From NCBI RefSeq assembly GCF_016907715.1, contig NZ_JAFBCM010000001.1, positions 186,001 to 250,000 on the forward strand: a DNA stretch of 64,000 bases, written 5' to 3'. The stretch comes from Tenggerimyces flavus. GTDB lineage: Bacteria > Actinomycetota > Actinomycetes > Propionibacteriales > Actinopolymorphaceae. A program made the position numbers and the translations under genes. Below the pieces are notes generated by a model. The model saw only the letters and a program-made list of their open reading frames with translations, did no database searches and was not told the origin of the DNA. This document shows, piece by piece, positions 39,599 to 57,245 of this stretch; the first letter of the stretch is position 1, and every line of letters begins with the position of its first letter.

Positions 39599-40174
39599 AT
39601 GTCGGTATTGGAGTTCGTCCCAGCAATGATCTCTGCACTGGCTGCGCTGGCGTGGCCAGTCGGAATCGTGGTCGTAGTGTTCATATTCCGGCGCCAGGCC
39701 CGCGCGTGGCTGACTGACCCCCCGTCTGTCCTGAAGCTCGGTCCGGGAGGCTTCGAGGCACAGTGGAACCGACAACTGTCTGCGGTTGCGGACGCTGTAG
39801 AAGAAGCCTCGATGCTGGACGTTACGAAGAGCCCGTCCACCGAGACAGACGTGCCAAGCGAGCAGCTCCCACCGGTCACCGAGAACCCTCCACTCGTGGC
39901 CATCGTGGAGGCAGCCGCCGATGTCGAGCGGGCTTTGACGAACCGTTTCGAGCGAGCAGGCATGACGTATGACACGAAGCGTGGCATGGCTGTTCGGGCA
40001 GAGTTCGCGTATCAACGTGGGTTGATCAGCGAGAAGACGGCCGCGTCAGTCCGTGGGCTGAACATCATGCGCAACCTGGCGATACACGGACCCGGCTACG
40101 TCAGCGACACAGAGGCGCGAGAGTTCGTGGCGCTTGCGGAAGCAGCGATCTACGCGATCGACCAGGCTGGATAA
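39599..40174 (+). CDS. Membrane-anchored HEPN-like (DUF4145-type) protein
   Basis: 191 residues from ATG at 39599 (GAGGG before it). A single membrane segment at residues 8-30 (WPVGIVVVVFIFRRQARAW) is followed by a Glu/Pro-rich linker and a helical domain. The last helices read GLNIMRNLAIHGPG and then EAREFVALAEAAIYAI. RNLAIH at 158-163 fits RNxxxH, the active site of HEPN ribonucleases, and the arrangement matches DUF4145-like domains. If active it would cut RNA next to the membrane. It faces the SIR2-like gene across 140 bp and is cargo of the element. The RNase role is inference from one motif. Confidence 0.6.
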   Translation: MSVLEFVPAMISALAALAWPVGIVVVVFIFRRQARAWLTDPPSVLKLGPGGFEAQWNRQLSAVADAVEEASMLDVTKSPSTETDVPSEQLPPVTENPPLVAIVEAAADVERALTNRFERAGMTYDTKRGMAVRAEFAYQRGLISEKTAASVRGLNIMRNLAIHGPGYVSDTEAREFVALAEAAIYAIDQAG

Positions 40175-40314
40175 GAGGCCGAGTCAGCTTGGGCGTGCCG
40201 GCCCGGCCGAGGACGGGCCCCCAGGCCCGCCCGCAAGGCCGAGTGCCGGGGCGGGGCGCGCCGTAGGCGCGGCCTTGATCTCATAGAGGTCAACTCAGCA
40301 ATGCGATACGCGCG

Positions 40315-41307
40315 CTACCCAATGCGGAGGGTGGACTTCCCCAGGGGGTGGGTTGTGGAGTCGAAGAAATACACAGTGTGGGGCTTGAGTGCCTTCTTGA
40401 TCCTCGCCTTCTCCTGGACGGTTCCTTCAGGATCACCGGTCGGATACATGGCGAACGCAATATCCCGCTTCGGGCCCGCCTTGATCGCATCAACGATGTG
40501 GCGGTCCTGCTCGCTGAGGGAATGGCCAAAGATAAGGATCGGTCGCACGTCTTCGGTAAGGGATCTAAGGCAGAAGCTGAGATATGACGAACGCTTTATA
40601 GTCCGAAGCTTTGCGGGCGATGTTCCCTCGCTGACAAACAACGGTCGTCGTGCAGCGGCAGCGGAGGAGTATCGACTTGCGAGCTGCAGGAGACTCCCAC
40701 TATCGGCATTGATCCACTTGCCGTTCTCCCCATTGTCATCCTGCCAAAGATGAATCGCTCCATGTAGATAGTGGATCGGCGTTTGATTGGGGCGGAGGTC
40801 CACGTCTGACGGGTTGAACTTTCCGGCGTCCCAGAGGTAGTCGACGAGTTTGACGCGCGGCAGATTCCGCACCTGGGACCAGTAGAGGCAGAGGTCATAG
40901 TTCGTCGTGAAGACGCAGGAGTGGCCGTCGAGCCATTTGGCAATTTTTCTGTGAGTACTGTCGGGAAATTCTTCCCATGGTACATGTACTTTGCCAACCG
41001 CGCCGAATAGGGCGTCGCGAATCATCGCGTAGATATTGTCAACCTGTCTGGTTGATCGCCCGAGCGCCTTAAGAACGAGGTGTGAGTGATGAATCGATTC
41101 CAGGACGGCCTCGAAATTCCTCGTTTTCAGTCCCGTGAATATGCTCTTTGCGCTGGATGTAAGGGTGGCGGCCCTGTACAGGCTGCTGTAGTTGAACCTA
41201 CTCCACAGGTTGATGCTAAGCCCATTGCCGATAAGCAGGACAGGCCATACGCCGCTATTCAAACTGGCCCAGGAAGGCAATTCTTCGCCAACAACGAGCT
41301 TCGTCAT
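40315..41307 (-). CDS. SIR2-like DUF4917 protein (candidate NAD-consuming defence effector)
   Basis: 330 residues from ATG at 41307, chosen for AGGAGG 7 bases upstream. The SIR2-like nucleotide fold shows VLLIGNGLSINLWSRFNYSS (Gly-rich loop with Asn), CVFTTNYDLCLYWS (NYD motif) and IHYLHGAIHL with the His expected to be catalytic, then ILIFGHSLSEQDRHIVDAI. This is the DUF4917 pattern. SIR2-like proteins of phage-defence systems (Thoeris ThsA, DSR, SIR2-HerA) destroy NAD+. Codon use is clearly more A/T-rich than in neighbours, a sign of recent arrival. It is convergent with the HEPN-like gene, inside a mobile element. NADase activity is inference. Confidence 0.7.
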   Translation of the reverse strand: MTKLVVGEELPSWASLNSGVWPVLLIGNGLSINLWSRFNYSSLYRAATLTSSAKSIFTGLKTRNFEAVLESIHHSHLVLKALGRSTRQVDNIYAMIRDALFGAVGKVHVPWEEFPDSTHRKIAKWLDGHSCVFTTNYDLCLYWSQVRNLPRVKLVDYLWDAGKFNPSDVDLRPNQTPIHYLHGAIHLWQDDNGENGKWINADSGSLLQLASRYSSAAAARRPLFVSEGTSPAKLRTIKRSSYLSFCLRSLTEDVRPILIFGHSLSEQDRHIVDAIKAGPKRDIAFAMYPTGDPEGTVQEKARIKKALKPHTVYFFDSTTHPLGKSTLRIG

Positions 41308-41335
41308 TCGCAATCCTCCTAGATCCCGGCCGGAG

Positions 41336-42145
41336 TCATTTGCCTAGATCGACCGCAGCGGCGGACACGACGTCGAGTAGGTCGTCGAGGATCGCGGGCG
41401 TTGCGGAGATGGTCGCTCGGGAGCTGGCGTCGTGGTCCTTGCCGTCGAGGTCGACGACTTGGAGGCCGGCTTCGCGGGCGATGATGGCGCCGGCGGCGGT
41501 GTCCCACGGCTTGTTGCTGAGGAGGACGGTGCCGTCGATCCTGCCGGCTGCTGCCCACACGAGGTCGATTGCTGCCGAGCCAAACATCCGGATGCGCTCT
41601 ACGCGGTCGGCGAGCTGGTGGGTCAAGGCATGCCGCTGGGCGTTCTTCTGGGCGGCTCGTGCGCCTACAGCGTAGTCGCCGATGGCGATTATGGCGCCAC
41701 GTAGCTCGGTGGTCGTGCTCCCGTGGATCTGTCGGCCGTTGAGCTCGGCTCCACCGTGCTGGGTGGCGTAGTACCGCTCGTTCAGGAACGGCAAGTCGAC
41801 AACGCCGAGGATCGGTTGCTTGTGGTGGATGAGGCCGAGCGACGAGCCGCAGAGTGGCAGACCGTGGACGAGGTTGGCGGTGCCGTCGACGGGATCCAGT
41901 GCCCAGTAGGGGCGGTCCGGGTCGAGGTTGGCCGCCCCTTCTTCCTCGCCGAGGAAGCCGATCTTCGGCGTTTCCGCTTGCAGGAAGTCGCGCATCTCGC
42001 GCTCGATCGCGTAGTCCAGGTTGGAAGCGAAGTCCCGATCTCCCTTCTGCGTAAGGGCATTCGGCGCCTGCTCGCGAAGGGTTCGGCGGGCGATGTCGAT
42101 GGCGCGCATGGCGATCGGGAGCAGCTCCGCGGTCGCGATCGTCAT
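41336..42145 (-). CDS. Inositol monophosphatase-family phosphatase
   Basis: 269 residues from ATG at 42145, overlapping the upstream gene by ATGA. Metal-site motifs are complete: GEEEG (Glu67-69), WALDPVDGTANLVHGLP (Asp84, Asp87) and KPWDTAAGAIIAREAG (last Asp). It should remove phosphate from inositol phosphate, a sugar phosphate, or 3',5'-ADP. It is third in the GntR-XRE-phosphatase operon of the element, where Nudix hydrolases are more usual in AICEs, suggesting a control or nucleotide-signal role. Confidence 0.88.
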   Translation of the reverse strand: MTIATAELLPIAMRAIDIARRTLREQAPNALTQKGDRDFASNLDYAIEREMRDFLQAETPKIGFLGEEEGAANLDPDRPYWALDPVDGTANLVHGLPLCGSSLGLIHHKQPILGVVDLPFLNERYYATQHGGAELNGRQIHGSTTTELRGAIIAIGDYAVGARAAQKNAQRHALTHQLADRVERIRMFGSAAIDLVWAAAGRIDGTVLLSNKPWDTAAGAIIAREAGLQVVDLDGKDHDASSRATISATPAILDDLLDVVSAAAVDLGK

Positions 42146-42987
42146 AGCCGAGTACCTCGTTCCCAGAGGGTCTCAAAGACCTGCTCGAAGATGGGAAACA
42201 GACCGCCTGGGAGCGTCTGTCGATTGATCATGAACGTGGGTGAGTCGATCCCGCGTGTGTGCGGAAAGTACGGCTGCATGACGCAGACTTGGTGATCGAC
42301 GATGAGCAGGTTGAACCGGCTCGTCTCGTTGTAGGTGGCGACCTGGAGCCGAGCTTGCGCCTCGATGGGCATGCGGTCACGCACCCGCTTGACGATGGCT
42401 TGGATGTTCAGCTCAGTAAGGGCGGAGATCTGCCCAGGGATGTAGCCTTCCTCGTCCTCGTAGGTCTTGACCGCCTCGCTCGCAGGGTCGAGGAAAAGGC
42501 ACCGCAGCGTCGCGCCGCGTTCGAGGACTGCCCGTAGGTTGCGGTCCGGGTACTGCTGGCACAGGAGGTTAAGCGAGATACCCACGGCGTCGATCGTGTC
42601 CGCGTTGTCGAGTAGCTCGGTCAGCGACACCTCGGACGCGAAGTCCGAGCGCGTCATGTAGATGGCGGACAAGTCGGCGAACCGGTCGCCCATGAGCTGG
42701 CTCACAATGTCCATGGCGTCCGTACGCTCACCAGGCGCACTCGTGTGGGTGGCCAAGCTCGCCGCGACCAGGACGTCACCAGGCGGCGTGGTGCCCGTTT
42801 CCCACGACTCGACGGCATGCGCCGACGGCTCCCAACCCAGCAGAGGCGTGAGCAGCTCGGCGAATTCCGCATGCGTCAAGCCGAGCCGCTCACGTGCGCT
42901 TGCGACCTGGCCCCGCGCAATCGACCCGAGATCGGGCTTGTACCCGTGCCGGTTGCGCAACTCGACAAGACGAGGCGACTCGCTCAT
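42142..42987 (-). CDS. XRE-type HTH regulator with C-terminal DUF5919-like domain
   Basis: 281 residues from ATG at 42987. Residues about 20-75 form a helix-turn-helix (ARERLGLTHAEFAELLTPLL then SAHAVESWETGTTPP). The rest resembles a phospholipase D-like or DUF5919 sensor fold: LLDNADTIDAVGISLNLLCQ and FNLLIVDHQVCVMQPYFPHT, without a complete HKD motif. Such proteins occur beside GntR genes in AICEs and probably control transfer and excision. Overlaps both neighbours by 4 bp. Confidence 0.7.
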   Translation of the reverse strand: MSESPRLVELRNRHGYKPDLGSIARGQVASARERLGLTHAEFAELLTPLLGWEPSAHAVESWETGTTPPGDVLVAASLATHTSAPGERTDAMDIVSQLMGDRFADLSAIYMTRSDFASEVSLTELLDNADTIDAVGISLNLLCQQYPDRNLRAVLERGATLRCLFLDPASEAVKTYEDEEGYIPGQISALTELNIQAIVKRVRDRMPIEAQARLQVATYNETSRFNLLIVDHQVCVMQPYFPHTRGIDSPTFMINRQTLPGGLFPIFEQVFETLWERGTRL

Positions 42988-43484
42988 CGGCGCCGCCGCT
43001 CCGTCCCGGTAGCGACAGACGGTGCCGGCTTGGCGTCGTGCGGGAACTGCTCGCCAGTGCGGCCGTACAGGTCCATGAGCTGGGTCTGAAGAACCGCAAT
43101 CAGGCGTCGCAGCTCGGCGACCTCAGCGCGAAGCTCCGCCACGGTCGCCCCGCCCTGCTGGTCCTTCACGATCGACGAGAGGTCCTTGAGTCCGGCTCTG
43201 AGCTGTTCGATCTGCTCCGCGAGGTCTTCGATCTGGACGGAGCGTCGCTCGGCCTCATCTGGCGTCGCAACGACGAATACCGCCTTGCCTGGCTGGCCCC
43301 GAACGATGCCCTCCTGGCGGAGGATCGCGACTGCGCCGCGTGCGACGGTGGCCGAGACGTTGTAGTGCTCGCATAGGCGCGCAGTGGAGGGGATCGGATC
43401 ACCGACCGCAAGCTCTCCTCGCCGGATCTGCGCCCGAAGGTCTTCGGCGACCTGCTGGTATGCGGGCGTCCCGTAGTCGGCCAC
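42984..43484 (-). CDS. GntR-family regulator of the integrative element
   Basis: 166 residues from GTG at 43484; GGAGG sits 6 bases upstream and decides this start over ATG at 43502. Winged helix at residues 5-70: AYQQVAEDLRAQIRRGELAV, IPSTARLCEHYNVSATVARG, GIVRGQPGKAVFVV. The remainder is a coiled coil (ELRAEVAELRRLIAVLQTQL). Like KorSA of pSAM2 it should repress the divergent activator operon. A palindrome and a partial copy lie between the two promoters. Confidence 0.85.
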   Translation of the reverse strand: MADYGTPAYQQVAEDLRAQIRRGELAVGDPIPSTARLCEHYNVSATVARGAVAILRQEGIVRGQPGKAVFVVATPDEAERRSVQIEDLAEQIEQLRAGLKDLSSIVKDQQGGATVAELRAEVAELRRLIAVLQTQLMDLYGRTGEQFPHDAKPAPSVATGTERRRR

Positions 43485-43576
43485 TGCCGACCTCCAATGC
43501 ATAGCTGAGCCGTGTATGGCAGGACGAGCGTACTCAGGCGTAGGTCTGGTCTCAACATCTGGACAAACTATGAGTG

Positions 43577-43601
43577 CATAGCTGTGCTATGTATGTATAG
43601 T
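43577..43601. promoter_or_regulatory. Operator and -10 box of the activator operon
   Basis: CATAGC and GCTATG form a dyad around TGT at 43577-43591, directly before a -10-like TATAGT at 43596-43601. A related GCATAGC sequence lies at 43499-43505 before the GntR start. This fits a GntR site acting on both divergent promoters. Confidence 0.5.
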
Positions 43602-43630
43602 TGAACCTCCCGAACAAGGAGGTACGGATC

Positions 43631-44089
43631 ATGGCAATGCCCCGCAGAATTCCGATCCCGTTCGGTGAGGCGTTCCCGAAGGGCGCTTTCGCCGTGGGTG
43701 ATGTCGAGCCGTTGCGCGACTTCGACAAGTCGTCGCGGGACAAGATCGTCCAGGCGGTCGACGAGGACAGCGGCGAACCAATCTGGACGCTCGACGTGAT
43801 CGACGCCGATGACGACGCCACGAAGACCACGCGTTCGCTCTCGGTGCGGATCGTGGCGGCTTACAAGCCGCTCTTGCCGGACATGCCAACCGGTATGCCG
43901 TCGGCGTTCTCGTTCATGCGACCGGTGGAGTTCGTCGGGTTGTCGGCGTCGCCGTACGTCGCGGACTCGCCGATGGGTAACGGCAAGGGCCGGCTGGCGT
44001 GGTCCTTCCGTGCGACTGGGATGAAGGCGCCTGGCATCGATGCCAAGCCCACCAAGCCCGGACCGGCCGCGAAGGAGAACGCGGCATGA
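43631..44089 (+). CDS. Replication, integration and excision activator-like protein (Pra-like)
   Basis: 152 residues from ATG at 43631 with a strong AAGGAGGT. The pattern AMPRRIPIPFGEAFPKGAFA, VEPLRDFDKSSRDKIVQAVD, WTLDVIDADDDATK and FMRPVEFVGLSASPYV, followed by RLAWSFRATGMKAP, matches the AICE proteins annotated as plasmid replication, integration and excision activators. By analogy with Pra of pSAM2 it would turn on rep, xis and int. First gene of a run of overlapping genes reaching the translocase. Confidence 0.7.
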   Translation: MAMPRRIPIPFGEAFPKGAFAVGDVEPLRDFDKSSRDKIVQAVDEDSGEPIWTLDVIDADDDATKTTRSLSVRIVAAYKPLLPDMPTGMPSAFSFMRPVEFVGLSASPYVADSPMGNGKGRLAWSFRATGMKAPGIDAKPTKPGPAAKENAA

Positions 44090-44379
44090 GCACCGGGCAG
44101 GCTCCACGATCGGATCCGGTGCTTGACGCCCTCCGAGAGGCGCGGGCGGTCCGCGATGGCGCGGACGAGGCCATCCGAGTTCTGCTCGCGTGGGCGCGTG
44201 AGGTGTCGTCCCCGCGGCCGTATCGGCTGGCTGATCTAGCCGACGCGTCGGGGTTGTCGATCTCGGGCGTTCGGAGTGCCTACGGGCCTGAGGACGTGGA
44301 GCTTGTCCGGACCCTGCTGCAGGTCGGCGAGCTGCCTGCAGAACGTGCGGTCACTAGCGCCCAGGAGGTTGTCCGATGA
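44086..44379 (+). CDS. Small helix-turn-helix protein of the element
   Basis: 97 residues from ATG at 44086, overlapping its neighbours on both sides by ATGA. The second half holds a likely HTH: YRLADLADASGLSISGVRSA. Position between the activator and the transfer genes suggests a regulator or accessory DNA-binding protein. Family not recognised. Confidence 0.55.
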   Translation: MSTGQAPRSDPVLDALREARAVRDGADEAIRVLLAWAREVSSPRPYRLADLADASGLSISGVRSAYGPEDVELVRTLLQVGELPAERAVTSAQEVVR

Positions 44380-44669
44380 CAGAACAGGCGTGGGACACAG
44401 TGGCGGAGCTGCACGCCTACGCGGACCGACTGAGCGAGGGTACGGCGCGTTGGCCGGCTCCAGGCCTCGGCTGTACGCGGATCGGCGGCTACACGGTCGT
44501 GCCGGTCGCGATCCATCGCGCGATCTGCGGCTGGCGCGTGCAATCCGCACAGGACACGACCCCGGACGTCGCGTACTGCTGGGGCTGCCATCTGGCGATG
44601 TTCACTGACGAGCTTTGCGCGGCTCCACCTGCTCCGACGAAACGCTGGGTGATCGCTGCTGCGCACTGA
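44376..44669 (+). CDS. Small Cys-containing protein of the element, unknown
   Basis: 97 residues from ATG at 44376. Four to five Cys, including ICGWRVQ and YCWGCHLAMF, could bind zinc. It belongs to the overlapping operon of the activator. No family recognised. Confidence 0.5.
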   Translation: MTEQAWDTVAELHAYADRLSEGTARWPAPGLGCTRIGGYTVVPVAIHRAICGWRVQSAQDTTPDVAYCWGCHLAMFTDELCAAPPAPTKRWVIAAAH

Positions 44670-44763
44670 AGCGACGCGGGGACGGCACTGGACCTTTGGC
44701 GAGGGAACCTGCCGTCCCCGCGTCTTCCAACCCCAGATCCTCCGATGTGGAAGGCGAGGTGGC

Positions 44764-45030
44764 ATGTCCAACCGTAGCTGTCAGGGTCAGCTCGGACTGT
44801 TCATGTGGTCGAACCAGTCGGGCGGCGAGCATCTCCGGCCGAGTCAGGAGTGGAAGTCGTGGCTGTACTGGTGCGGCCGGTGCAGTGAGCTGGAAGTGTC
44901 GGTAGCGGGCACGTTGTGTCCGGCGTGTGACAAGCCTAGGAAGCGAGCGGCCGCGACCAGGCGAGCGGTGCGTAAGGCGATCGCGAACGGCCCAACGAAC
45001 AAGCCGGCTCGTAGTCGGGGGCGGTCATGA
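44764..45030 (+). CDS. Small zinc-ribbon protein of the element
   Basis: 88 residues from ATG at 44764. CGRC...CPAC, 16 residues apart, forms a zinc ribbon, followed by a very basic tail (KPRKRAAATRRAVRKA). It overlaps the translocase start by ATGA and may be a DNA- or partner-binding transfer accessory protein. The 94 bp before it hold no gene. Confidence 0.5.
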   Translation: MSNRSCQGQLGLFMWSNQSGGEHLRPSQEWKSWLYWCGRCSELEVSVAGTLCPACDKPRKRAAATRRAVRKAIANGPTNKPARSRGRS

Positions 45031-46718
45031 TGCCAACGAACTTCGAACCGCAGGTTCGCGGAGAGACGGTGAAGGTCGGCTTCGTCACCGTCGTTCTGGC
45101 GTTCCTCGTCTGGAAGGTCGGCCGTGGTGTCTGGTGGGCGGCACGGCAACCGGTGCTGTGGGTTGCGCTCGTCTCCGGATTGGCTTTGCGCCGGCTGTTC
45201 GAGGCGTCCGGCCTGTGGGCTGTGCTGGGCGTCGTAGCGGCGGGCACGGCAGCGCTGGTCACCTGGCGGCTGCTCCATCCGTCGTCGTTCCGCCAGATGG
45301 TCTGGTGGCCGCTGCGGTCCTGGTGGCGACGAGTCGCGGTCTACCGGCCGGAATGGGACGTCGTGTGCAAGCAGCTCGGGCTGCACCAGGTCAAGGACGG
45401 GCAGGAGATCTACCCGCCCGTCTTGCGTGTCCAGTCAACGGGTTCGGTGGACAAGGTGCGGGTTCGGATGTTGCCCGGCCAGATCTTGCCGGACTATGCG
45501 CAGTTCGCGCACCGGTTCGCCCAGACGTATGAGGCGTTGGACTGCCGGGTGCGGTCGGTGCCGAAGCACCGGCTTTTCGCGACTGTCAAGGCGGGGTTGC
45601 GGCGCGGCTTGCCGGGGTTGTTCGACCCCGCGATCCGGAAGGCGAAGAAGGCCGCCAGCCGTGACCTGCACGTGCTGGACTCTGGGGTGCCGGAGGCCGA
45701 ACACGTTCCGGACGACGTCGGTCGGGAAGGGACCGAACGTCAGGCGCCGTCGCGGGTGGTCGAGCTGTGGTTCCTCACTCGGGATCCGCTCGCGGCTGTG
45801 GTCCCGATGCTCGACGTCGCGGCCCGTCCGAACCTCGGTGGCCTGGCGGTGGCGCTGCGCGAGGACGGCCTCGTGTGGACGCTGCGACTCCTCGCGACCC
45901 ACGTACTGATCGTCGGTGCAACCGGTGCAGGCAAGGGCTCGGTGCTGTGGACGATCGTCCGTGCGCTGGGGCATGCGATCCGAACCCGGCTGGTCGAGCT
46001 GTGGGTGATCGACCCGAAGGGCGGCATGGAGTTCGCCGCCGGACAAGCGCTGTTCGCCCGCTACTGCTACGGCGACGACGCTCCGGAGAACGACGAAGGC
46101 GAGGATGTTGACCGCAAGCGGGCCTACGAACTGACCTATGCGGAGTTCCTCGAAGACGCTGTCCGTGAGATGCGGGACAGGCAGCGACGTCTGCGCGGGA
46201 TCTTCCGTACGCACAAGCCCGCGCCGGGCGACCCCTTGATCGTGCTCATGATCGACGAGATCGCGTCGTTGACCGCATACGTCGTCGACCGAGAGGCGAA
46301 GAAGCGAATCGAGTCGGCGCTCAACGTGTTGCTGTCGCAGGGCCGAGCGGTGGGCGTGGTGATCATCGGCGCCGGTCAGGACGCCCGCAAGGAAGTGCTC
46401 ACCATGCGGGGCCTGTTCCCGACCCGGATCGCGCTCCGACTCAATGAGGCCGAAGAGGTCGATCTCGTGCTCGGTAACGGCAAACATGAACGCGGCGCCC
46501 GCTGCGAAGAGATCCCCGACGACATGCCCGGAACCGGGTTCGTGGTCGTCGAGACCCAACCCGAGCCCGTGCGGCTGCGGTTCCCGTACCAGTCCGACAC
46601 CGAGATCCGCACCATGTGCAGCCTCTACGAGCCGGGCGCGAGCTACGACCACCGCGACCCGCGCGCCGGTCTGCGATCTGTGTCCGACCTGTACGACGAG
46701 CTGGAGGAGGTCGCCTGA
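45027..46718 (+). CDS. FtsK/SpoIIIE-type DNA translocase (TraB-like)
   Basis: 563 residues from ATG at 45027. Two membrane segments near residues 17-35 and 65-82, then the motor domain: Walker A LIVGATGAGKGSVLWTIVRA at about 293-312 and Walker B LIVLMIDEIASLTAY at about 405-419. In AICEs a single TraB-type hexamer moves double-stranded DNA between hyphae and is sufficient for conjugation. A C-terminal winged helix for recognition of clt sites is expected but not obvious. Intact. Confidence 0.88.
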   Translation: MMPTNFEPQVRGETVKVGFVTVVLAFLVWKVGRGVWWAARQPVLWVALVSGLALRRLFEASGLWAVLGVVAAGTAALVTWRLLHPSSFRQMVWWPLRSWWRRVAVYRPEWDVVCKQLGLHQVKDGQEIYPPVLRVQSTGSVDKVRVRMLPGQILPDYAQFAHRFAQTYEALDCRVRSVPKHRLFATVKAGLRRGLPGLFDPAIRKAKKAASRDLHVLDSGVPEAEHVPDDVGREGTERQAPSRVVELWFLTRDPLAAVVPMLDVAARPNLGGLAVALREDGLVWTLRLLATHVLIVGATGAGKGSVLWTIVRALGHAIRTRLVELWVIDPKGGMEFAAGQALFARYCYGDDAPENDEGEDVDRKRAYELTYAEFLEDAVREMRDRQRRLRGIFRTHKPAPGDPLIVLMIDEIASLTAYVVDREAKKRIESALNVLLSQGRAVGVVIIGAGQDARKEVLTMRGLFPTRIALRLNEAEEVDLVLGNGKHERGARCEEIPDDMPGTGFVVVETQPEPVRLRFPYQSDTEIRTMCSLYEPGASYDHRDPRAGLRSVSDLYDELEEVA

Positions 46719-47116
46719 TGGCCACCTGGAAGCACGCCCTACCCGTGTGGGTCGACCTCGCAGCCCTGCCGGGTGAGTGGGAGCTGCTGTACGACCCCAC
46801 GACCGACGCCTACGCCGTTGCTGGCCGCGCTCACTCCTCAGCCGCCCCCGACGTCGTGATCCGGATCGACTACGCCGTCTCCGGCTCCCACGCCGACACC
46901 CGACGCATGATCGGCTCGGCGATCGTCCACGGCTTCCGCACCGTCATCCGCCGACACCGCGCCGAGCTGGCGCAAGCCGAGGAGGGTCTCCGACAGGTGA
47001 TCGATGACGACGGCCCGAGCTGCGCGACCTGCCTCGGCTTCGGGCACCTGGAGAACCTCGGCGCTTGCCCAGACTGCAATCCCGGTTACCCCAACGAGAG
47101 AAGGGAGAACTCATGA
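46718..47116 (+). CDS. Small zinc-finger protein between translocase and Rep
   Basis: 132 residues from ATG at 46718, sharing one base with the translocase stop and preceded by GGAGGAGG. N-terminal beta-rich part, then CATCLGFGHLENLGACPDCN, a DnaJ-like CxxC...CxxC cluster. Overlaps Rep by ATGA. Function not known; probably replication or transfer support. Confidence 0.55.
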   Translation: MATWKHALPVWVDLAALPGEWELLYDPTTDAYAVAGRAHSSAAPDVVIRIDYAVSGSHADTRRMIGSAIVHGFRTVIRRHRAELAQAEEGLRQVIDDDGPSCATCLGFGHLENLGACPDCNPGYPNERRENS

Positions 47117-48726
47117 CCGATGCGAACGACAGCACGGACGAGAATCTCGGCTCCGCGAACGGCGCGGGCGATCTGCCCAACCTGTCCGCGGAGCTGGTGA
47201 AGGCCGGCGCGATTGCTGCCGGTGTGTGCGTTCGCCCGATCGTTCGTGAGGTCATCGACACCCAGACCGGCAACACCCAACTGATCCCCATTCCGTGTCA
47301 GGCGACCCTTGCCAGCAAGTGCCAGCCGTGCGCCGAACGAGCCCGTCGGCTACGGATGCAGCAGTGCCGCGAGGGCTGGCACCTCGACACCGAGCCAGCG
47401 GACAAGCCGCGTTCTGAGCCGCCCGTGCATGAGCCGGGGACGAGCTGTGCGTACGGGTGTGTGGATTGTTCCGCCCCGACCCACCTCGCCCACGAGGAGG
47501 AGACCCCAGAGCCAACCGAGACAAGGCGCACGCGCTCGACTCGTCGTCGCAATGACGTTCCAGACCTTCCCCGGCTGCCCGTCGAGGCTCGCACAGTGGG
47601 CCGCACCTTCACCGCACCGGACGGGAAGACCTGGCGACCGTCGATGTTCCTCACGTGCACTATGCCTTCCTACGGCCCCGTGAATGACGACGGCACCCCG
47701 AAGAATCCTTCGACCTACGACTACCGCCGAGCGGCGCTTGACGCGCTGCACTTCCCGAAACTGTGGGACCGGCTCGTCCAGAACCTCCGCCGCGCGGTCG
47801 GTTACGAGGTCCAGTACTTCGCCGCGATCGAACCGCAACGGCGGCTCGCACCGCACGTCCACACCGCGATTCGTGGCGCCATCCCGCGCGCCCTTCTGCG
47901 AGAGGTGATCGCGGCCACCTATGCCACCGTGTGGTGGCCAGCTCACGATCGCATCCTCTACTCGACGAGCAGTCCGCCGGCCTGGGACGTCGCGGGTGAG
48001 GCGTACTGCGACCCGGACACCGGGCAGCCGCTGCCGGCGTGGAGCGATGCCGTCGACTCGTTGGAGGTCGAGCACGGCGGCCCGGCCCATGTGCTGCGGT
48101 TCGGCAAGCAGAGCGACATACAAGGCCTCATCGCCGGCACGTCCGACGCGGACCGCCGGATCGGATACCTGACTAAGTACCTCACGAAAGCAATCGTCGA
48201 CCCGATCGACGACGGGGACGCCGCGAGCTCGCGGCGAGAGGCACACATCGACCGACTCCACCGCGAGGTACGACACCTGCCCTGTTCGCCGAAGTGCTGG
48301 AACTGGCTCCACTACGGAGTCCAACCCAAGGACGCTGACGCCGGCATGGTTCCCGGACAGTGCCCCAGCAAGGCCCACGATCGCGAACACCTCGGCTGCG
48401 GCGGCCGTCGCGTCCTCGTCTCCCGCAAGTGGACCGGCAAGACGCTCACCGAGCACAAGGCCGACCGCTACAGCGCCGTCAGGACGGTCCTCGAGGCGGC
48501 CGGGATCGACCTGCAAGACGCCGACCGCTGTTCGGCAACCGCGACCCAGCCGGACGGGAGCCCGCGGTTCGTCTGGCAGACCGTCGACCTCGACGACATC
48601 CCGACCTATCACCACGTCATCGCCCAGTCCGTGGCTGAGAGCAACCGATGGCGCGACCAGTACGAGGAGGCCAAACGACGAGCAGGACCACCGTTCAGCA
48701 ACTCAGCAAACGGCCGGGCGGCGTGA
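47113..48726 (+). CDS. RepSA-like replication initiator
   Basis: 537 residues from ATG at 47113 with AAGGGAGAA upstream. N-terminal Cys cluster (CQPCAERARR, CAYGCVDC), then the initiator core with FLTCTMPSYGPV, YFAAIEPQRRLAPHVHTAIR (two-His motif at about 248-250) and IGYLTKYLTKAIVD, which carries a Tyr in the region of the nicking residue. This is the rolling-circle initiator family of pSAM2 and related AICEs. It lets the excised circle replicate. Intact. Confidence 0.85.
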   Translation: MTDANDSTDENLGSANGAGDLPNLSAELVKAGAIAAGVCVRPIVREVIDTQTGNTQLIPIPCQATLASKCQPCAERARRLRMQQCREGWHLDTEPADKPRSEPPVHEPGTSCAYGCVDCSAPTHLAHEEETPEPTETRRTRSTRRRNDVPDLPRLPVEARTVGRTFTAPDGKTWRPSMFLTCTMPSYGPVNDDGTPKNPSTYDYRRAALDALHFPKLWDRLVQNLRRAVGYEVQYFAAIEPQRRLAPHVHTAIRGAIPRALLREVIAATYATVWWPAHDRILYSTSSPPAWDVAGEAYCDPDTGQPLPAWSDAVDSLEVEHGGPAHVLRFGKQSDIQGLIAGTSDADRRIGYLTKYLTKAIVDPIDDGDAASSRREAHIDRLHREVRHLPCSPKCWNWLHYGVQPKDADAGMVPGQCPSKAHDREHLGCGGRRVLVSRKWTGKTLTEHKADRYSAVRTVLEAAGIDLQDADRCSATATQPDGSPRFVWQTVDLDDIPTYHHVIAQSVAESNRWRDQYEEAKRRAGPPFSNSANGRAA

Positions 48727-48745
48727 CGTGATGGAGGAAGGTCCC

Positions 48746-48961
48746 GTGGAATTGCTTTTGACGGTTGAAGAAGCGGCGCAGCGCCTTGGGATCGGGCGAA
48801 CGCGCATGTGGTCCTTGGTGTCGAGCGGGGCGGTTCGGTCGGTGTGCATCGGTCGGCTCCGGCGTATCCCCGTGGAATGCCTCGCTGAGTACGTGGGTGC
48901 GCTGCTCGCCGGGGCCGACGAACGCAGCTCGACGGACGAGGTGGAGCCCGATGCCGCGTAG
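48746..48961 (+). CDS. xis: Excisionase-like HTH protein
   Basis: 71 residues from GTG at 48746; GGAGGAAGG 5 bases upstream decides this start over GTG at 48728 or ATG at 48731. MerR-type excisionase fold: LLTVEEAAQRLGIGRTRMWS then GRLRRIPVECLAEYV. It directs integrase toward excision. It overlaps the integrase start by 11 bp. Confidence 0.85.
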   Translation: MELLLTVEEAAQRLGIGRTRMWSLVSSGAVRSVCIGRLRRIPVECLAEYVGALLAGADERSSTDEVEPDAA

Positions 48962-50189
48962 GTCGAACGGCGAGTCGAGCATCTATGAGGGGTCAGACGG
49001 CTACTGGCACGGCCGAGTGACCGTAGGCGTCAAGGACGACGGCAAGCCGGACCGTCGTCACATCATGGCCAAGACTCGGCCCGAGATCGTTCAAAAGGTG
49101 CGGAAGCTCGAAAAGGATCGGGACAGCGGCAGCGTTCGCAAGGTAGGCCAGCGGTGGACCGTAGCGAGTTGGCTTGAGCACTGGGTCGACAACATCGCGG
49201 TACCGCCGGCGGTTACGGACAGCACGCATTCGGGCTACGCCGTGGACGTCCGAACGCACCTCGTGCCCGGCATCGGTGCCCACCGCCTGGACAAGATCGA
49301 ACCCGAACACCTGGAGCGCCTGTACGCCAAGATGCAGACCGCCGGCAAGTCGCCCGGCACAGCACACCACGTCCATAGAACGGCTCGCGTTGCGTTCAAC
49401 CAGGCGGTTCGGCGCGGCTACCTGACCGTGAACCCTGCCGTTCGTGCGGTCCCGCCCAAGCTCGATGAGCTGGAGGTCGAGCCGTACGACGTCAACGAGG
49501 TCAAGCGCGTGCTCAAGGTGGCCGCCGAGGGCCGGAACAGTGCCCGGTGGGCGATAGCGCTCGCACTCGGGCTACGACAGGGTGAGGTGCTCGGACTTCG
49601 TTGGGAGGACGTCGACCTCGATCGGGCGGTCCTGCGTGTACGGCGCGGCTCACCTCGTCCGAAGTACCGCCATGGGTGCGGTGAAACGTGCGGGCGGAAG
49701 CCTGGGTTCTGCCCTCAGAAGGTCCGGAGCAACCCGCCAACGGCGGACACGAAGTCACGCGCTGGCCGACGACGGATCGGGCTGCCGGACGAGCTGGTCG
49801 AGCTTCTTCGCGAGCACCGGATGGAGCAGGCCTCCGAGCGCGACGAGGCTCGCCAGCTCTGGCACGAGGAAGGATGGCTGTTCGCGAACCCGACCGGCCG
49901 CCAACTCAACTCCAACACGGACTATCACCAGTGGAAGGCACTGCTGGCCAAGGCGGGTGTCCGGGAGTCACGCTTGCACGATGCTCGGCACACGGCCGCG
50001 ACGGTGCTGCTCGTGCTCGGGGTTCCGCCTCGGACCGTCATGGCGATCATGGGGTGGTCCAGCTCGAAGATGGCCGAGCGGTACCAGCACGTCACTGACT
50101 CGATCCGGGCGACTGTGGCGAAGAGCGTCGGCGGGCTTCTCTGGGACACCGTGGACGAGTCGGACGAGGCCGGCGCCGATCCCAAATGA
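48951..50189 (+). CDS. int: Tyrosine-type site-specific integrase
   Basis: 412 residues from ATG at 48951. An N-terminal arm-binding domain (GYWHGRVTVGVKDDGKPDRR), a SAM-like core-binding domain, then the catalytic domain with Arg in ALALGLRQGEVLGLRW (about residue 206), His/Arg in RLHDARHTAATVLLVLGVPP (about 343) and nucleophile Tyr in MAERYQHVTDSIRAT (about 378). A Cys-rich insert CGETCGRKPGFCPQK lies in the middle. It recombines the tRNA-Ser 3' half with the element. Its stop codon lies in the putative arm site, 15 bp from the right repeat. Confidence 0.95.
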   Translation: MPRRSNGESSIYEGSDGYWHGRVTVGVKDDGKPDRRHIMAKTRPEIVQKVRKLEKDRDSGSVRKVGQRWTVASWLEHWVDNIAVPPAVTDSTHSGYAVDVRTHLVPGIGAHRLDKIEPEHLERLYAKMQTAGKSPGTAHHVHRTARVAFNQAVRRGYLTVNPAVRAVPPKLDELEVEPYDVNEVKRVLKVAAEGRNSARWAIALALGLRQGEVLGLRWEDVDLDRAVLRVRRGSPRPKYRHGCGETCGRKPGFCPQKVRSNPPTADTKSRAGRRRIGLPDELVELLREHRMEQASERDEARQLWHEEGWLFANPTGRQLNSNTDYHQWKALLAKAGVRESRLHDARHTAATVLLVLGVPPRTVMAIMGWSSSKMAERYQHVTDSIRATVAKSVGGLLWDTVDESDEAGADPK

Positions 50190-50206
50190 GACTAGAACTG
50201 AGACTA
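50187..50206. promoter_or_regulatory. Putative integrase arm-type sites (right)
   Basis: TGAGACTA, GAAC, TGAGACTA, identical to 38796-38815. The first base triplet is the int stop codon and the last two bases enter the right direct repeat. Confidence 0.5.
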
Positions 50207-50322
50207 GGCAGCGAAACGGGCCGGTCCCTGGTGTGGGCCGGCCCGGCGCTTTCCCTTGCGGGCTTGGGCGGAGGATGGGGGATTCGAACCCCCGAGGGGT
50301 TGCCCCCAACACGCTTTCCAAG
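50205..50322. repeat. attR direct repeat of the integrative element
   Basis: 118 bp matching 38581-38700. Bases 50269-50322 are the 3' half of the intact tRNA-Ser gene; identity with attL stops just past the anticodon loop, where the crossover probably took place. Confidence 0.9.
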
Positions 50323-50354
50323 CGTGCGCCATAGGCCAACTAGGCGAATCCTCC
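50269..50354 (-). tRNA. tRNA-Ser(GGA)
   Basis: 86 bases. Acceptor GGAGGAT pairs with ATCCTCC and discriminator G; anticodon stem CACGC/GCGTG encloses loop TTGGAAA with anticodon GGA at 50317-50319 (reads UCC/UCU); a long variable arm marks a serine tRNA; T arm GGGGGTTCGAATCCCCC. CCA is not encoded. A TACACT -10 box lies at 50366-50371 on the same strand. This is the integration site of the element; the 5' half is chromosomal and the 3' half is restored by attR. Confidence 0.95.
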
Positions 50355-53788: not shown

Positions 53789-53916
53789 GTGCTAGTTCTC
53801 CGCGGCGAAGTCGGCGAGGGTCTCGTGGATCAGCGGGTTGCCGTCGGACACCGCAGCGGGGTTGCGGGTGCGGTAGTACGGGATCGCGATCATCTCCAGG
53901 GAGAGGACCCAGCCGC
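53789..53916. repeat. 128-bp copy of the 3' end of the phosphotransferase gene (left copy)
   Basis: Matches 57118-57245 at 126 of 128 positions (differences: one G/T and one C/G). It begins 11 bp after the dnaX stop and covers the last 41 codons and stop of the APH gene on the minus strand. It ends exactly where tRNA-3'-like sequence begins. The two copies are direct repeats flanking 3.2 kb. Confidence 0.9.
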
Positions 53917-54014
53917 TCCCCCATCCTCCGCCCAGCCAGGTAAGACGAAACTCGGACCAGGCCCCGAACACGGGGGCACCGGTCCGAACTCGTCGGGTCT
54001 CAGTTTTGGTCTCA
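53917..54014. repeat. Left att remnant: tRNA-Ser 3' fragment, hairpin and arm-like sites
   Basis: 53917-53934 equals the last bases of tRNA-Ser and its flank. GGACCAGGCCCC and GGGGGCACCGGTCC at 53956-53985 can form a hairpin. GGGTCTCA-GTTT-TGGTCTCA at 53995-54014 is, on the minus strand, a degenerate version of the TGAGACTA repeats of the intact element. Confidence 0.65.
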
Positions 54015-54067
54015 TGTGAGGTCCGGCCGCCCAGATCGACGCCCTCATCCGGGTCCTCGTGATCGCC

Positions 54068-54193
54068 TCACAGCAGTCCATCGGCGCTGTGCGCGACAGT
54101 TGACCGGATCGAGTCCATCACGTGTTGGTATCGCTCGGCCATCTTGGAGATGGACCACGCCATAGTCGCCAGGACAGTTCGTGGCGGGACGCC
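54068..54193 (-). pseudogene. Integrase C-terminal fragment
   Basis: 41 codons and stop encode GVPPRTVLATMAWSISKMAE and RYQHVMDSIRSTVAHSADGL, closely matching the end of the intact integrase at 48951-50189, including the nucleophile Tyr. Upstream of this the frame has no integrase sequence: the N-terminal about 90 percent has been replaced by the DUF3644 fragment on the other strand. Confidence 0.85.
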
Positions 54194-54217
54194 GACGTCA
54201 TTCGGACAGGAGCCAGC

Positions 54218-54517
54218 ATGGCTCGACCTAAGAAGCACTGGCCGATGGTTGCCGCATCGCGGGACGAGGCGAGCCTCGCGGTCCGCTTGTACAACGACCC
54301 GGCCGAGATGCGATCGTTCGAAGGCTTCGTCATCCATATGCATCTCGCCTGGCTCTATCTCCTGCATGCCGAGTTCATCAGGGACGGTGTCGATCACCGG
54401 TCGACACGTCGAGCCTGGCGCTTCGATCACGAGCCAGAAGGGCCGAGCCGCCCCGACCGAGGAGAGAAGCGTCAGTCTTCATCGCCAACGATCACGTCCA
54501 CCACCTCTGGAGCATAG
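54218..54517 (+). pseudogene. DUF3644 protein, truncated
   Basis: 99 codons from ATG at 54218, with GACAGGAG before it. The N-terminal part matches DUF3644 proteins: MARPKKHWPMVAASRDEASL, AVRLYNDPAEMRSFEGFVIH and MHLAWLYLLHAEFIRDGVDH. Resemblance is lost after about 75 codons and the frame ends inside the 3' end of the Fic gene; full-length relatives are several times longer. DUF3644 genes are often found in phage-defence and mobile regions. Probably non-functional. Confidence 0.65.
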
Positions 54518-55683
54518 AAGCGACGGGCCGCACCCGATGCACCTGGGAGCGGAGCGAGTAGACCCAGATCCACAAGTTGACTGACTAGGCCGTTCGCACG
54601 ACCATAGGAGATTCCTAGCCCACGCTCGACCCCACGAACGGTAAAAGACACGTGCGCAACTGCGTAGTCGACCAGCGTGTGTGCGGTATCAGCCCTGAGG
54701 TTCGATTGGCGGACACGCTCCTTCATTGAAGCCTGCAATTCAACTAGCGCGAGCATTCGGCGGTGCGTGGACTTTGCCGATGCCTCAAGGCCGGTCGCAA
54801 AGAAGCGAACGTAGGTATCCCAATCGCCGGCGGCACTTACGCTAAAGAGACGATCGTAGTACTCATGGCGGCGCGTCTCGAACCACGGCGAGACTGTCAG
54901 TGTCGGTTCAAGGAGGGTTCCCCTAGTAAGGAGGTGCACGACGATTAGAAGGCGTCCGATGCGCCCGTTCCCGTCGTGGTATGGATGCAGAGTCTCGAAT
55001 TGGTAGTGCGCTAGTGCAGCCGCAACGACTGGGTCGACTTCCTGGCTGACGCCGTCGTCGTCCATCCAGTCAAGGAGGCCCTGGAGATTAGCCTGGAGAT
55101 CCAAGCCGGGAGGAGACGGCACGAACCGCGACGCATATATCGTGGCTTCATTTCGACCAACCTCCTTCCGTCGACCCACTATCACCTGCTGGGTTCTGAC
55201 CGCTCCCGACTCGGCTGTCTGGTTGGCCGTGCCTTGAACCAAGTTCAACTGCAATTCATTGAGCATTGTTACGGAGAGATTTCGCCCTTGCTCAATCCAC
55301 CCGAAGGCCACATCGGCCATACGCACGAAGTTCAGAACCTCTTTAAGGTCCGGACTTTGAGGCTGGTCCTCATCCGCAGTAAGAACTGCTGCTAGCGGAG
55401 CATATGTGCCCTCTAACGCCGACGTGCTCTGCGCCTCCGCTTGAAGCGATGGACGCCGGAAGAGCCGAGGGTTGGGCAGCCGCCTAGCCGTACTGTCGAG
55501 CGCTGCCAGTTCGGCTCGGGCGTTGGCCACTACGCGGTACGTCGACGGCGATAGGTCGGGCGTAGTTCTCGGCAGCGGGTACGGCACGAACGCAGCGTGC
55601 TTCCACTCCCCTCGAACGGGATCAGTGCCACTGATTTGCACCAGGCTCCCGGGGGCCTGGTCCGTGAAGCTGCTCAGGTCCAT
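54472..55683 (-). CDS. Fic-family AMPylase-like protein with C-terminal wHTH
   Basis: 403 residues from ATG at 55683 (MDLSSFTDQAPGSLVQISGT); earlier ATGs at 55713 and 55773 are less typical. The N-terminal inhibitory motif [ST]xxxE[GN] is T87-S-A-L-E91-G92. The active site HPYHDGNGRIGR spans residues 233-244 and is complete. A winged-helix region near the end (VRGVERGLGISYGRANGLVS) is usual for class II Fic proteins. It should transfer AMP to a hydroxyl of a target protein, held in check by Glu91. More A/T-rich than neighbours; lies in the decayed element next to a hairpin repeat array. Confidence 0.92.
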   Translation of the reverse strand: MDLSSFTDQAPGSLVQISGTDPVRGEWKHAAFVPYPLPRTTPDLSPSTYRVVANARAELAALDSTARRLPNPRLFRRPSLQAEAQSTSALEGTYAPLAAVLTADEDQPQSPDLKEVLNFVRMADVAFGWIEQGRNLSVTMLNELQLNLVQGTANQTAESGAVRTQQVIVGRRKEVGRNEATIYASRFVPSPPGLDLQANLQGLLDWMDDDGVSQEVDPVVAAALAHYQFETLHPYHDGNGRIGRLLIVVHLLTRGTLLEPTLTVSPWFETRRHEYYDRLFSVSAAGDWDTYVRFFATGLEASAKSTHRRMLALVELQASMKERVRQSNLRADTAHTLVDYAVAHVSFTVRGVERGLGISYGRANGLVSQLVDLGLLAPLPGASGAARRFYAPEVVDVIVGDED

Positions 55684-55844
55684 GATTTCATCGTACACAC
55701 CCTTGTCAGACATCGCCACCTTGATTGACAACTTCCCGTTGTATGAAACGTATACGCTAGGTAGTGGTAACATTACGATGGGTATGGCGGGCTGTCTTCT
55801 TCCATCCCCAGCTCGTTACTGGCATTGAGTTGGCATAAATCCTG

Positions 55845-56058
55845 CGGATCACTGACACGAACACTGCTGTCGTGTCCAACAAGTGCAACGCAGCAACCCT
55901 CCGTTGCACACATCCCACGGATCACTGACACGAACACTGCTGTCGTGTCCAACAAGTGCAACGCAGCAACCCTCCGTTGCACACATCCCACGGATCACTG
56001 ACACGAACACTGCTGTCGTGTCCAACAAGTGCAACGCAGCAACCCTCCGTTGCACACA
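55845..56058. repeat. 73-bp tandem repeat, 2.9 copies, two hairpins per unit
   Basis: Units start at 55845, 55918 and 55991 and look identical. Each has stem 1, GACACGA with TCGTGTC over a 9-base loop, and stem 2, GTGCAACG with CGTTGCAC over an 11-base loop. A degenerate partial unit precedes the first copy. The array lies 162 bp upstream of the Fic start, in the opposite reading sense to any clear gene. No convincing coding sequence crosses it. Confidence 0.9.
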
Positions 56059-56082
56059 GATCCCCACAGGTGTAGGGGATCT
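56058..56082. repeat. Hairpin closing the repeat array
   Basis: AGATCCCC and GGGGATCT pair perfectly over a 9-base loop directly after the last repeat unit. It could be a terminator for a transcript of the array. The following 150 bp up to 56239 show no gene. Confidence 0.55.
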
Positions 56083-56239
56083 GAAGCTCCAGGGATTGGC
56101 ATGCAACACACTGCTTCCAGTCTCATTCCTAGCCTCATACATCAACGTTCGAGCAGGTCCGTGCTGCTCTCTTGCCATAATCTGCACCTGAGCGGGACCA
56201 TGCTGTACGCATATGAACTGGACGAAACAGACTTAGAAG

Positions 56240-56303
56240 GCGTGTTTGGGGCAACCCTTCGGGGTTCGAATCCCATCGTCCGCCCAAGCCCGCAAGGGAA
56301 AGA
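56240..56303. repeat. Right att remnant: tRNA-Ser 3' half
   Basis: Reads like the 3' half of tRNA-Ser in plus orientation: variable arm, T arm GGGGTTCGAATCCC and a decayed acceptor ATCGTCCG, then the same flank CGCCCAAGCCCGCAAGGGAA as the intact copy. Weaker similarity continues to about 56358 (GGCCGGTCCGAATTCG, TGGTCTCAG). It lacks the 5' half, so it is not a tRNA gene. Confidence 0.75.
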
Positions 56304-56360
56304 GTCGGACGGGTCTCCGCCTAGGGGCCGGTCCGAATTCGTTGGTCTCAGCGCAAGCTG

Positions 56361-57092
56361 TCATCGCGACCCGAGCTCAGCGAGGTAGTCGCGAAGGACG
56401 GCACCAAGCTGCCTTGGATGCGTGTACCACAGATCATGCGGGGCGCCAGGCACGATCTGAAGCCGACCATCTGGAACCAGTGCCGTGAGCTGCGCCACTG
56501 GCCAGACCGGTCGCACATCCAGTTCGCCATGCACCGCACGGAATGGCGCCTGGAGGTTCGCGACATCGCTCCACAAGTTTCGGCGGCGCACATACCGCTT
56601 GTAGTCGGCGTTAGCGACCTCGTTACAGTCTGCGTTCCACCTGTATGTACCTGCGGGGACTTCCCGATCCGCACCGGCTTCCCGACCCGCGTGGTACGCC
56701 GCATGCCACGACCGATCGTTCTGCAGTCCTGCCCCCGCGATGTAGAGAACGGCTGAAGCTCGCTCCGGATGCTGCAGCGCGTACGCGAGCGCGAGGAAGG
56801 CACCATGGGAGTGGCCGCCCATTATCCAGCGTTCGATCCCGAGCAGCCGCCTCAGGCCCTCGAAGTCGCCCAGCGTGGTCGCCAGATCGTAGTTGCCGTC
56901 ATGAGTGGACCGTCCGCAGCCGCGTGGCTCGACTCGGTACGCGGTGGCGAACCCGTCGATCTGCTGCGCGACCGGCTCCATGTAGTCGCTGCAGCCGCCG
57001 CCTCCGGGTATGAGGAGCAACGGAGGTCCCGAACCTGTCTCAGTCACACCAAGATCGACGCCGTTGACCCGCAACAGCCGCTCCTCAGCCAT
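56361..57092 (-). CDS. Alpha/beta hydrolase
   Basis: 243 residues from ATG at 57092. Oxyanion region LLLIPGGGGCSDYMEPVAQQ, nucleophile elbow MGGHSHGAFLALAYALQHPE (GHSHG) and the C-terminal His in PGAPHDLWYTHP. Similar to proline iminopeptidase or lactonase-like hydrolases. It lies between the att remnant and the right 128-bp repeat; whether it is chromosomal or was carried in is open. Confidence 0.85.
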   Translation of the reverse strand: MAEERLLRVNGVDLGVTETGSGPPLLLIPGGGGCSDYMEPVAQQIDGFATAYRVEPRGCGRSTHDGNYDLATTLGDFEGLRRLLGIERWIMGGHSHGAFLALAYALQHPERASAVLYIAGAGLQNDRSWHAAYHAGREAGADREVPAGTYRWNADCNEVANADYKRYVRRRNLWSDVANLQAPFRAVHGELDVRPVWPVAQLTALVPDGRLQIVPGAPHDLWYTHPRQLGAVLRDYLAELGSR

Positions 57093-57117: not shown

Positions 57118-57245
57118 GTGCTAGTTCTCCGCGGCGAAGTCGGCGAGGGTCTCGTGGATCAGCGGGTTGCCGTCGGACACCGCAGCGGGGTTGCGGGTTC
57201 GGTAGTACGGGATCGCGATCATCTCGAGGGAGAGGACCCAGCCGC
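57118..57245. repeat. 128-bp direct repeat (right copy, inside the APH gene)
   Basis: The 3' end of the phosphotransferase gene; partner copy at 53789-53916. See the left copy for the comparison. Confidence 0.9.

Follow-up and report, generated by a model that had tools for sequence, protein, structure and literature searches.

Architecture of the locus

The window (the whole 64,000-nucleotide stretch of the Tenggerimyces flavus genome that was analyzed) carries a 73-bp tandem array at 55845-56058, with 2.9 copies, 100% match between copies, and no indels by TRF, and among the nine TRF rows of the window this is the only one with a period above 22. The three near-identical 73-bp units described in an earlier note on this DNA are borne out, the third spanning 68 of the 73 bases, and the two hairpins ascribed to each unit were located as perfect dyads in every one (Table 1). 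A closing hairpin had been noted as well, and a 9-bp dyad without a T run is indeed present there, its centre 28 bp from that of the last dyad 2, while its end lies at 56083, one base beyond the end first given. Within the array the spacing alternates: centres of dyad 1 and dyad 2 are 31 bp apart and those of dyad 2 and the next dyad 1 are 42 bp apart, with the six centres at -152, -183, -225, -256, -298, and -329 relative to an ATG at 55713, the likely start codon of a Fic gene, 131 bp upstream of which the array stands. Perfect hairpins (stems of at least 7 bp, loops of 3-12) paired within 60 nt occur as one further pair in the 64-kb window outside the array.

The array is not CRISPR-like, being made of identical contiguous 73-bp units with no unique spacers between them, and its near-identical head-to-tail units (TRF) are those of a minisatellite or VNTR. 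Degenerate additional units suspected by eye at its edges were statistically not significant. Elsewhere in the window, TRF reported a short palindromic tandem repeat (TGTTGTACAACACG) at 14952-15001.

Table 1. Features of the array, the adjacent Fic gene, and the surrounding relic element (positions in the window)
Feature	Position	Strand	Basis or description
Relic integrase-end arm-type site	53997-54014	-	2 mismatches
Integrase C-terminal remnant	54037-54195	-	Inverted repeat I1; DNA 74% identical to the intact integrase gene of the neighboring AICE
Fic gene, intact (Fic_N + Fic + C-terminal wHTH region)	54472-55713	-	Pfam, homologues, SoFic alignment
Imperfect palindrome near the start codon, core ACAAC-n5-GTTGT	55720-55750	-	Read by eye; 5-bp core alone at chance level
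Array unit 1, nearest Fic	55845-55917	-	73 bp; TRF (100% match) and covariance-model match
Array unit 2	55918-55990	-	73 bp; TRF and covariance-model match
Array unit 3	55991-56058	-	68 of 73 bp; TRF
Dyad 1, GACACGA-n9-TCGTGTC	55854-55876, 55927-55949, 56000-56022		Perfect 7-bp arms
Dyad 2, GTGCAACG-n11-CGTTGCAC	55883-55909, 55956-55982, 56029-56055		Perfect 8-bp arms
Terminal 9-bp dyad, CAGATCCCC-n9-GGGGATCTG	56057-56083		Closes the array; no T run
Relic distal integrase arm-type site, TGAGGCTAGGAATGAGAC	56120-56137	-	3 mismatches
tRNA-Ser 3'-end fragment with downstream flank (distal att remnant)	56248-56313	+	Inverted repeats I2 and I4

Winged-helix Fic enzymes are widespread, and their role is mostly unknown. 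The open reading frame of the Fic gene at this locus begins at 55773 (54472-55773), and homologues point to the ATG at 55713 (MSDK) as its start. Pfam named Fic_N and Fic in the protein and did not name an HTH domain; at residues 63-431 the protein can be aligned to SoFic (3EQX, titled "FIC domain containing transcriptional regulator" in its structure record), whose structure is described as containing a C-terminal wHTH (PMC10628234). The protein carries HPYHDGNGRIGR and TSALEG. Matches at E 1e-30 or better were found in 21 of 293 genomes of the order, own genome included, while a search with back-translated peptides confirmed no Fic relative in the genome contigs and viral contigs, and none of the 13 closest Fic homologues kept has the array upstream. 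Between the gene and the array lies an imperfect palindrome whose layout resembles a 13-n5-13 palindrome upstream of one homologue (L007), and which may, judged by this layout, be the ordinary Fic operator; if so, the array may serve another Fic-type protein, another regulator, or nothing.

The setting of the array is a decayed element. An AICE (38645-50354) occupies a tRNA-Ser gene and encodes an integrase, an FtsK-like protein, and the replication initiator RepSA; its arm-type site (TGAGACTAGAACTGAGAC) is found near both of its ends. Two diverged copies of this site, both on the minus strand, flank the Fic gene and the array (Table 1; chance expectation 0.01 per window). Together with the integrase remnant and two tRNA-Ser 3'-end fragments, they outline a relic of the neighboring AICE's family in which little is left but Fic and the array, in agreement with the earlier note, which had placed the array in a decayed element upstream of Fic. 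In its 20-base form (up to 2 mismatches), the arm-type site occurs in 6 of 196 relatives and in 19 of 394 genomes of the class, each count including the own genome. At their distal ends, where readable, related elements hold scattered single hairpins at most, and no non-coding tandem array was found there; an 84-bp x 2.8 repeat of 88% identity at one such end (L096/L110) lies in open, coding sequence and has a unit of 28 residues. The array is also absent from the matching position of the neighboring intact AICE. Since the readable distal ends of sister elements lack such an array, we take it to be cargo of the relic and not a standard attachment feature.

Several further observations concern the surroundings and this element family. 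The 3' end of an APH-type phosphotransferase gene is present twice, as direct copies of 128 bp (98%) at 53789-53916 and 57118-57245, and these enclose both the relic and an alpha/beta-hydrolase gene. In a relative, arm-type sites ~17.4 kb apart with a tRNA-Ser-like site (L089/L092, G115:C1:215155-232541) mark out another element belonging to this integrase family, while those of L096/L110 stand only ~800 bp apart with the 84-bp coding repeat between them, which suggests a very small relic of the same family.

Occurrence of the unit and the background of tandem repeats

Exact and degenerate searches confined the unit to one locus in the 8.52-Mb genome; it is therefore not the common dispersed repeat that had been considered as the opposing possibility, and the array is not REP/BIME-like. 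None of the 195 other genomes among 196 relatives searched, a set without a second genome of the genus, contains the unit. Among 394 genomes of the class, six of the 393 others have 20-55-nt pieces of it at E 0.001-0.043, taken as chance. A plasmid search with the unit returned one chance match (E 0.8) and a phage search none, an exact search for dyad 1 in genome contigs found none, and the array was in none of the 2, 29, and 1 viral-contig stretches examined. A covariance model of the unit gave weak scattered matches in 57 genomes, the best outside the array at 22.9 bits. For the suggestion that copies be sought elsewhere, with Fic genes beside them, the outcome is hence divided: the sequence is not conserved, while its period and spacing recur beside other Fic genes (see below).

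How ordinary such arrays are was gauged in a sample of the same genome comprising the window and 120 stretches of 20 kb (2.464 Mb, 29% of the genome). This sample holds eight arrays with period 60-200, at least 97% identity, and at least 2 copies, the window array included; six of the eight have periods not divisible by 3, and the units of several hold hairpins of at least 7 bp. With eight such arrays in a 29% sample, perfect tandem identity is no sign of selection here. Of the two causes the earlier note had offered for the identity between units, recent expansion therefore suffices, and selection is weakly evidenced by it.

The same genome contains a 106 bp x 4.8 array (98%) with a strong hairpin per unit (L121:5273-5771) and an 81 bp x 3.1 array (92%) with a hairpin at its end (L128:767-1018), as well as a dispersed, often paired REP-like palindrome, TTGRATGAAGGTGCCCTTCATYCAA (e.g., L124:17225-17283, L126:13524-13582, L140:10044-10101 and 10377-10433). 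The 29 convergent TTGSA-n15-TSCAA occurrences in 2.464 Mb are probably due to this palindrome; a TTGSA 20-bp dyad was accordingly given no weight as a shared signature, there being 29 convergent pairs at 20 bp in the own genome against an average of ~2 per offset.

One degenerate site in two versions

Both dyads fit a single degenerate site, TGMMACG-n11-CGTKKC, which was drawn up post hoc with both dyads already in view. It has six plus-strand matches in the array and no match in the rest of the 2.464-Mb sample of the own genome; among the other loci scanned, there was one match, in a viral contig. Read this way, the unit appears as two versions of one candidate site set at a 3-turn and a 4-turn step, and the array as this module three times over. 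The steps of 31 and 42 bp correspond to 3 + 4 = 7 helical turns, and it is this spacing that lifts the array above an ordinary minisatellite. The chance of a 31/42 split within a chance 71-74-bp period comes to 0.083 x 0.025, computed afterwards under uniform assumptions.

Spacing upstream of other Fic genes

The comparison covered 42 Fic loci, each with as much as 700 bp before the start codon, the starts being set by rule and some of them perhaps wrongly. Only three of the 42 have TRF repeats of period above 21, and each of these shows a period of 73 bp. Besides the window they are L243, with 1.9 copies at 100% match, and L023, where the match is 64-66% and the repeat sits within units of 147/127 bp. 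The L243 Fic protein is 58-68% identical to five aligned members of its clade (L023 67%) and 30% identical to the window Fic. Homology of the window unit to other Fic upstream regions is weak at best (of 200 shuffles, 6, 14, 36, and 195 reach the score for L023, L025, L026, and L243, respectively). At L262, a Fic gene with a 73/147-bp array has what reads by eye like an integrase C-terminal fragment and transposase ORFs immediately upstream, and tRNA-Arg behind it.

L243 and L023 belong to a second Fic clade, with L024, L025, L026, L242, and L244, whose upstream regions carry TTGSA/TSCAA words that recur with steps including 20, 31, 41-42, and 72-74 bp; individual loci may lack some of these. 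The nearest words stand at -37 to -47 from the start codon, and the layout is present also where TRF finds no tandem repeat; the leading self-match offset is 72 or 73 in two loci of the latter kind (L242, L026), 31 in L025, 42 in L024, and 122 in L244. At 33 other Fic loci, offsets 41, 30, and 71 lead (57, 57, and 29; mean 8.7), and the words differ between clades. At L253, L254, L258, L259, and L260, dyads of CCTGAAC or AACTGGA type recur at 70-71 or 41 bp and make well-formed candidate double operators (e.g., the former type at 71 in L253, the latter at 41 in L259 and L260).

Across 38 loci (L011, a duplicate, was left out of the 42 along with the window and the two loci with tandem arrays, and at most 8 were counted per locus and offset), the total for offsets 30, 31, 41, 42, 71, 72, and 73 is 261. 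In 40 dinucleotide shuffles this total averages 51.4 and does not exceed 88; in 60 control-gene upstream sets it averages 119.7 and does not exceed 174. This test is not independent, as the spacing rule was first noticed in loci that it counts. By offset, the loci exceed control genes at 41 (65 vs 13.6), 71 (26 vs 7.7), 73 (19 vs 6.1), and 31 (30 vs 13.9), while offset 42 does not stand above them (33 vs 30.6). Control genes score high at multiples of 3, and offsets 41, 71, 73, and 31 are therefore the cleaner evidence.

In the clade to which the window Fic belongs, the 13 loci L007-L020 minus the duplicate L011, there is less of this, and that is the chief weakness of the operator reading. 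TRF found no tandem array upstream in these loci, offsets 31/41/71/73 sum to 17 vs 11.1 expected (42 of 300 shuffles reach 17), and the array's half-site word was found once vs 1.0 expected; the 20 loci of the remaining clades give 81 vs 16.8, reached by 0 of 300 shuffles. The array itself, with its nearest centre at -152, lies farther from the start codon than the nearest words of the second clade, and its TTGCA words are oriented opposite to the words there. An apparent enrichment of GACACGA upstream of the closest Fic homologues was set aside, its anagrams doing nearly as well (59 of 300 reach the score).

The only tests independent of the loci that suggested the rule are those, against shuffles and control genes, on eight plasmid Fic loci (Thermus, four alphaproteobacteria, one betaproteobacterium, one cyanobacterium, and one haloarchaeon). 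These were picked for taxonomic spread from 55 listed matches with their upstream regions unseen, using annotated starts and offsets fixed beforehand. Here the rule offsets score 45 in total, where shuffles average 9.8 and none of 300 gets as high; among sets of eight control genes, 62 of 2000 reach that value; for offsets 31 and 41 alone the observed 29 is reached by 1 of 2000 control sets. Offset 41 or 30/31 ranks first or second in six of the eight loci. By offset, the sums are 13 at 30, 11 at 31, 18 at 41, 3 at 42, and 0 at 71, 72, and 73; two offsets outside the rule, 58 and 82, reach 11 each, equal to offset 31. The 3-turn and 4-turn steps (30/31 and 41) are thus replicated in the plasmid loci, and the 7-turn step (71-73) is not.

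Some of these Fic genes have neighbors that make defense contexts possible: in Aminobacter plasmid pAA04 (L279) the gene lies between a TIR-domain gene and HamA of the Hachiman defense system, and in L272 and L277 it adjoins DUF1156 and methyltransferase genes.

Folding of the repeat unit

On either strand, a single unit is more stably folded than its dinucleotide shuffles, with z -3.37 and -2.14 as RNA and z -4.13 and -3.94 as DNA. When it was run alongside the units of the other two 73-bp-period Fic arrays, the window unit gave z -1.82 on the fic strand and -3.56 on the other, and the L243 and L023 units ranged from -1.99 to +1.01 against shuffles. The latter two being without unusual folding, the repeats are better taken as DNA sites than as RNA. 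Rfam returned no family match in the array, and no terminator-like site was found in 55500-56500.

Interpretation and alternatives

The earlier note had left the array as a structured RNA, a protein-binding array, or a recombination site, and the evidence favors the second, in that both dyads fit one site and the 31/42/73-bp spacing matches that upstream of other Fic genes. We propose, at close to but short of an even chance, that the array arose by tandem amplification of an operator module on which a Fic-type winged-helix autoregulator acts, its dyads serving as DNA sites and not as RNA. From the computed array, its shared dyad form, its 31/42/73 spacing, and the recurrence of 30-31/41-42/71-73 steps upstream of other Fic genes, we infer how the sites would be occupied, by which protein, with what effect, and how the copies arose. 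Each 73-bp unit would hold two versions of one protein-binding dyad, and all six sites would lie on roughly one face of the helix. The binder would most likely be a Fic-type winged-helix protein, either the adjacent Fic or a relative formerly on the relic element, which would dock along the array as dimers or oligomers and so repress or tune fic transcription; DNA binding may also shift the AMPylation state of Fic, by comparison with another Fic-HTH enzyme (see below). The copies themselves would have arisen by slippage or unequal exchange.

The main rival is that the array is an ordinary minisatellite, i.e., a stretch of decaying element that had two hairpins by chance and was copied in tandem through slippage or unequal exchange, without being selected for a function. 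We consider this somewhat doubtful yet weighty: eight arrays of at least 97% identity with period 60-200 were found in 29% of the genome, six of them with periods not divisible by 3 and several with unit hairpins of at least 7 bp, the host element is a relic, and the unit has no homologue in 195 other genomes and leaves short pieces only in 6 of 393 others. A minisatellite, however, would give no reason to expect a shared dyad form or a division of the period into 31 and 42 bp, nor that the period should be 73 bp, as it is in both of the other arrays found upstream of the 42 Fic genes. The array could instead hold operators of a DNA-binding regulator that is not Fic, belonging to the host or to the element, and govern fic or a divergent transcript. 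This would account for two dyads that fit one site, as protein sites do, and for the lack of the array's words in the window Fic's clade, and the separate start-proximal palindrome may then be the Fic operator; we hold this to be improbable, because sites of a host regulator would be expected in the rest of the 2.464-Mb sample, where the dyad is absent, and the spacing is that seen at other Fic genes.

The remaining two options of the earlier note fare worse. A structured RNA, such as an RNA antitoxin resembling type III or a fic leader that folds, would fit the stable folding of unit and array (z -3.4 to -2.1) and the position of the repeats upstream of a possible toxin gene, and is nevertheless very improbable given that the other two 73-bp-period units fold little better than shuffles, that Rfam and the terminator search gave nothing in the region, and that the gene is Fic by Pfam and carries TSALEG (compare TSAIEG in the inhibitory helix of CbFic2). 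As for recombination, a cis-acting AICE site (an attachment arm, or a transfer or replication site) might be suspected in an array 36 bp inside the relic's distal arm-type site, yet the integrase arm-type sites are separate from it, readable related distal ends hold single hairpins at most (bar the coding repeat of L096/L110), and the neighboring intact AICE has no array there, which leaves this reading barely credible.

Beyond this locus, we tentatively extend the operator reading to Fic-wHTH genes of bacteria and archaea in general, a proposal that is possible but clearly below an even prospect. These genes would share a helically phased operator code, with clade-specific words at fixed 3- and 4-turn steps (30-31 and 41-42 bp) that in some clades sum to 7 (71-73); the DNA scaffold would oligomerize Fic and couple fic transcription to its AMPylation state, and the window would hold an amplified allele, three tandem modules that could tune or titrate by copy number. 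The evidence is stronger for a common spacing rule in Fic upstream regions than for the rule's bearing on the window array, and the rule keeps its own evidence if the array is only a minisatellite. If the rule holds across distant Fic clades, it would provide testable operators for many uncharacterized Fic genes and would point to Fic proteins assembling with a set geometry on DNA. The tandem array would offer a natural amplified substrate in tests of cooperative binding.

Comparison with known systems

Tandem repeats upstream of a potentially toxic gene are also a feature of the type III toxin-antitoxin systems ToxIN and CptIN, which, in the part of the source drawn on here, combine 36- or 45-nt pseudoknot RNA repeats with a ribonuclease toxin, whereas the window has 73-bp units, simple dyads, and Fic (PMC4627078). 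The downstream gene is Fic by Pfam and not a ToxN/CptN/TenpN-type toxin, and a terminator with the repeats, as in the cloned loci of that source, was not found in 55500-56500. Closer in form are the mycobacterial promoter repeats and MIRU minisatellites, whose tandem units likewise measure tens of bp and many of which are intergenic or in promoters (PMC12817950, PMC3635867); in M. tuberculosis the copy number of promoter tandem repeats varies and can change expression (PMC12817950). Unlike the window array, these have no helical-phase dyad rule described for them in the portions of the two sources used here (PMC12817950, PMC3635867).

Phased multi-site Fic operators or arrays of this kind were not found in the literature searched, of which few subscription papers formed part. 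Two Fic proteins provide the nearest parallels, autoregulation having been shown for CccR and DNA-controlled AMPylation proposed for CbFic2. CbFic2 resembles the window gene in its Fic domain, TSAxEG-type inhibitory helix, and C-terminal HTH, and its activity is reported to be regulated by DNA binding, with an AMPylation/deAMPylation switch proposed; unlike the window locus, it is without an array, and the text of the report considered here names no specific DNA site (PMC10628234). CccR, a Fic protein with a C-terminal HTH, is described as repressing its own promoter via an inverted repeat, a site of two inverted 10-bp boxes 26 bp apart near -35/-10, which it binds as a dimer, the dimer being needed, with DNA-binding helices 70.2 A apart (PMC9755527). 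Where the CccR site, as given there, is one dyad with 10-bp arms and a 26-bp spacer, the window has six dyads with 7-8-bp arms and 9-11-bp spacers, and its candidate sites stand at 31/42-bp steps farther upstream than a site near -35/-10. Like CccR, the window gene combines Fic with a C-terminal HTH region, recognized in the SoFic alignment, and has inverted repeats upstream.
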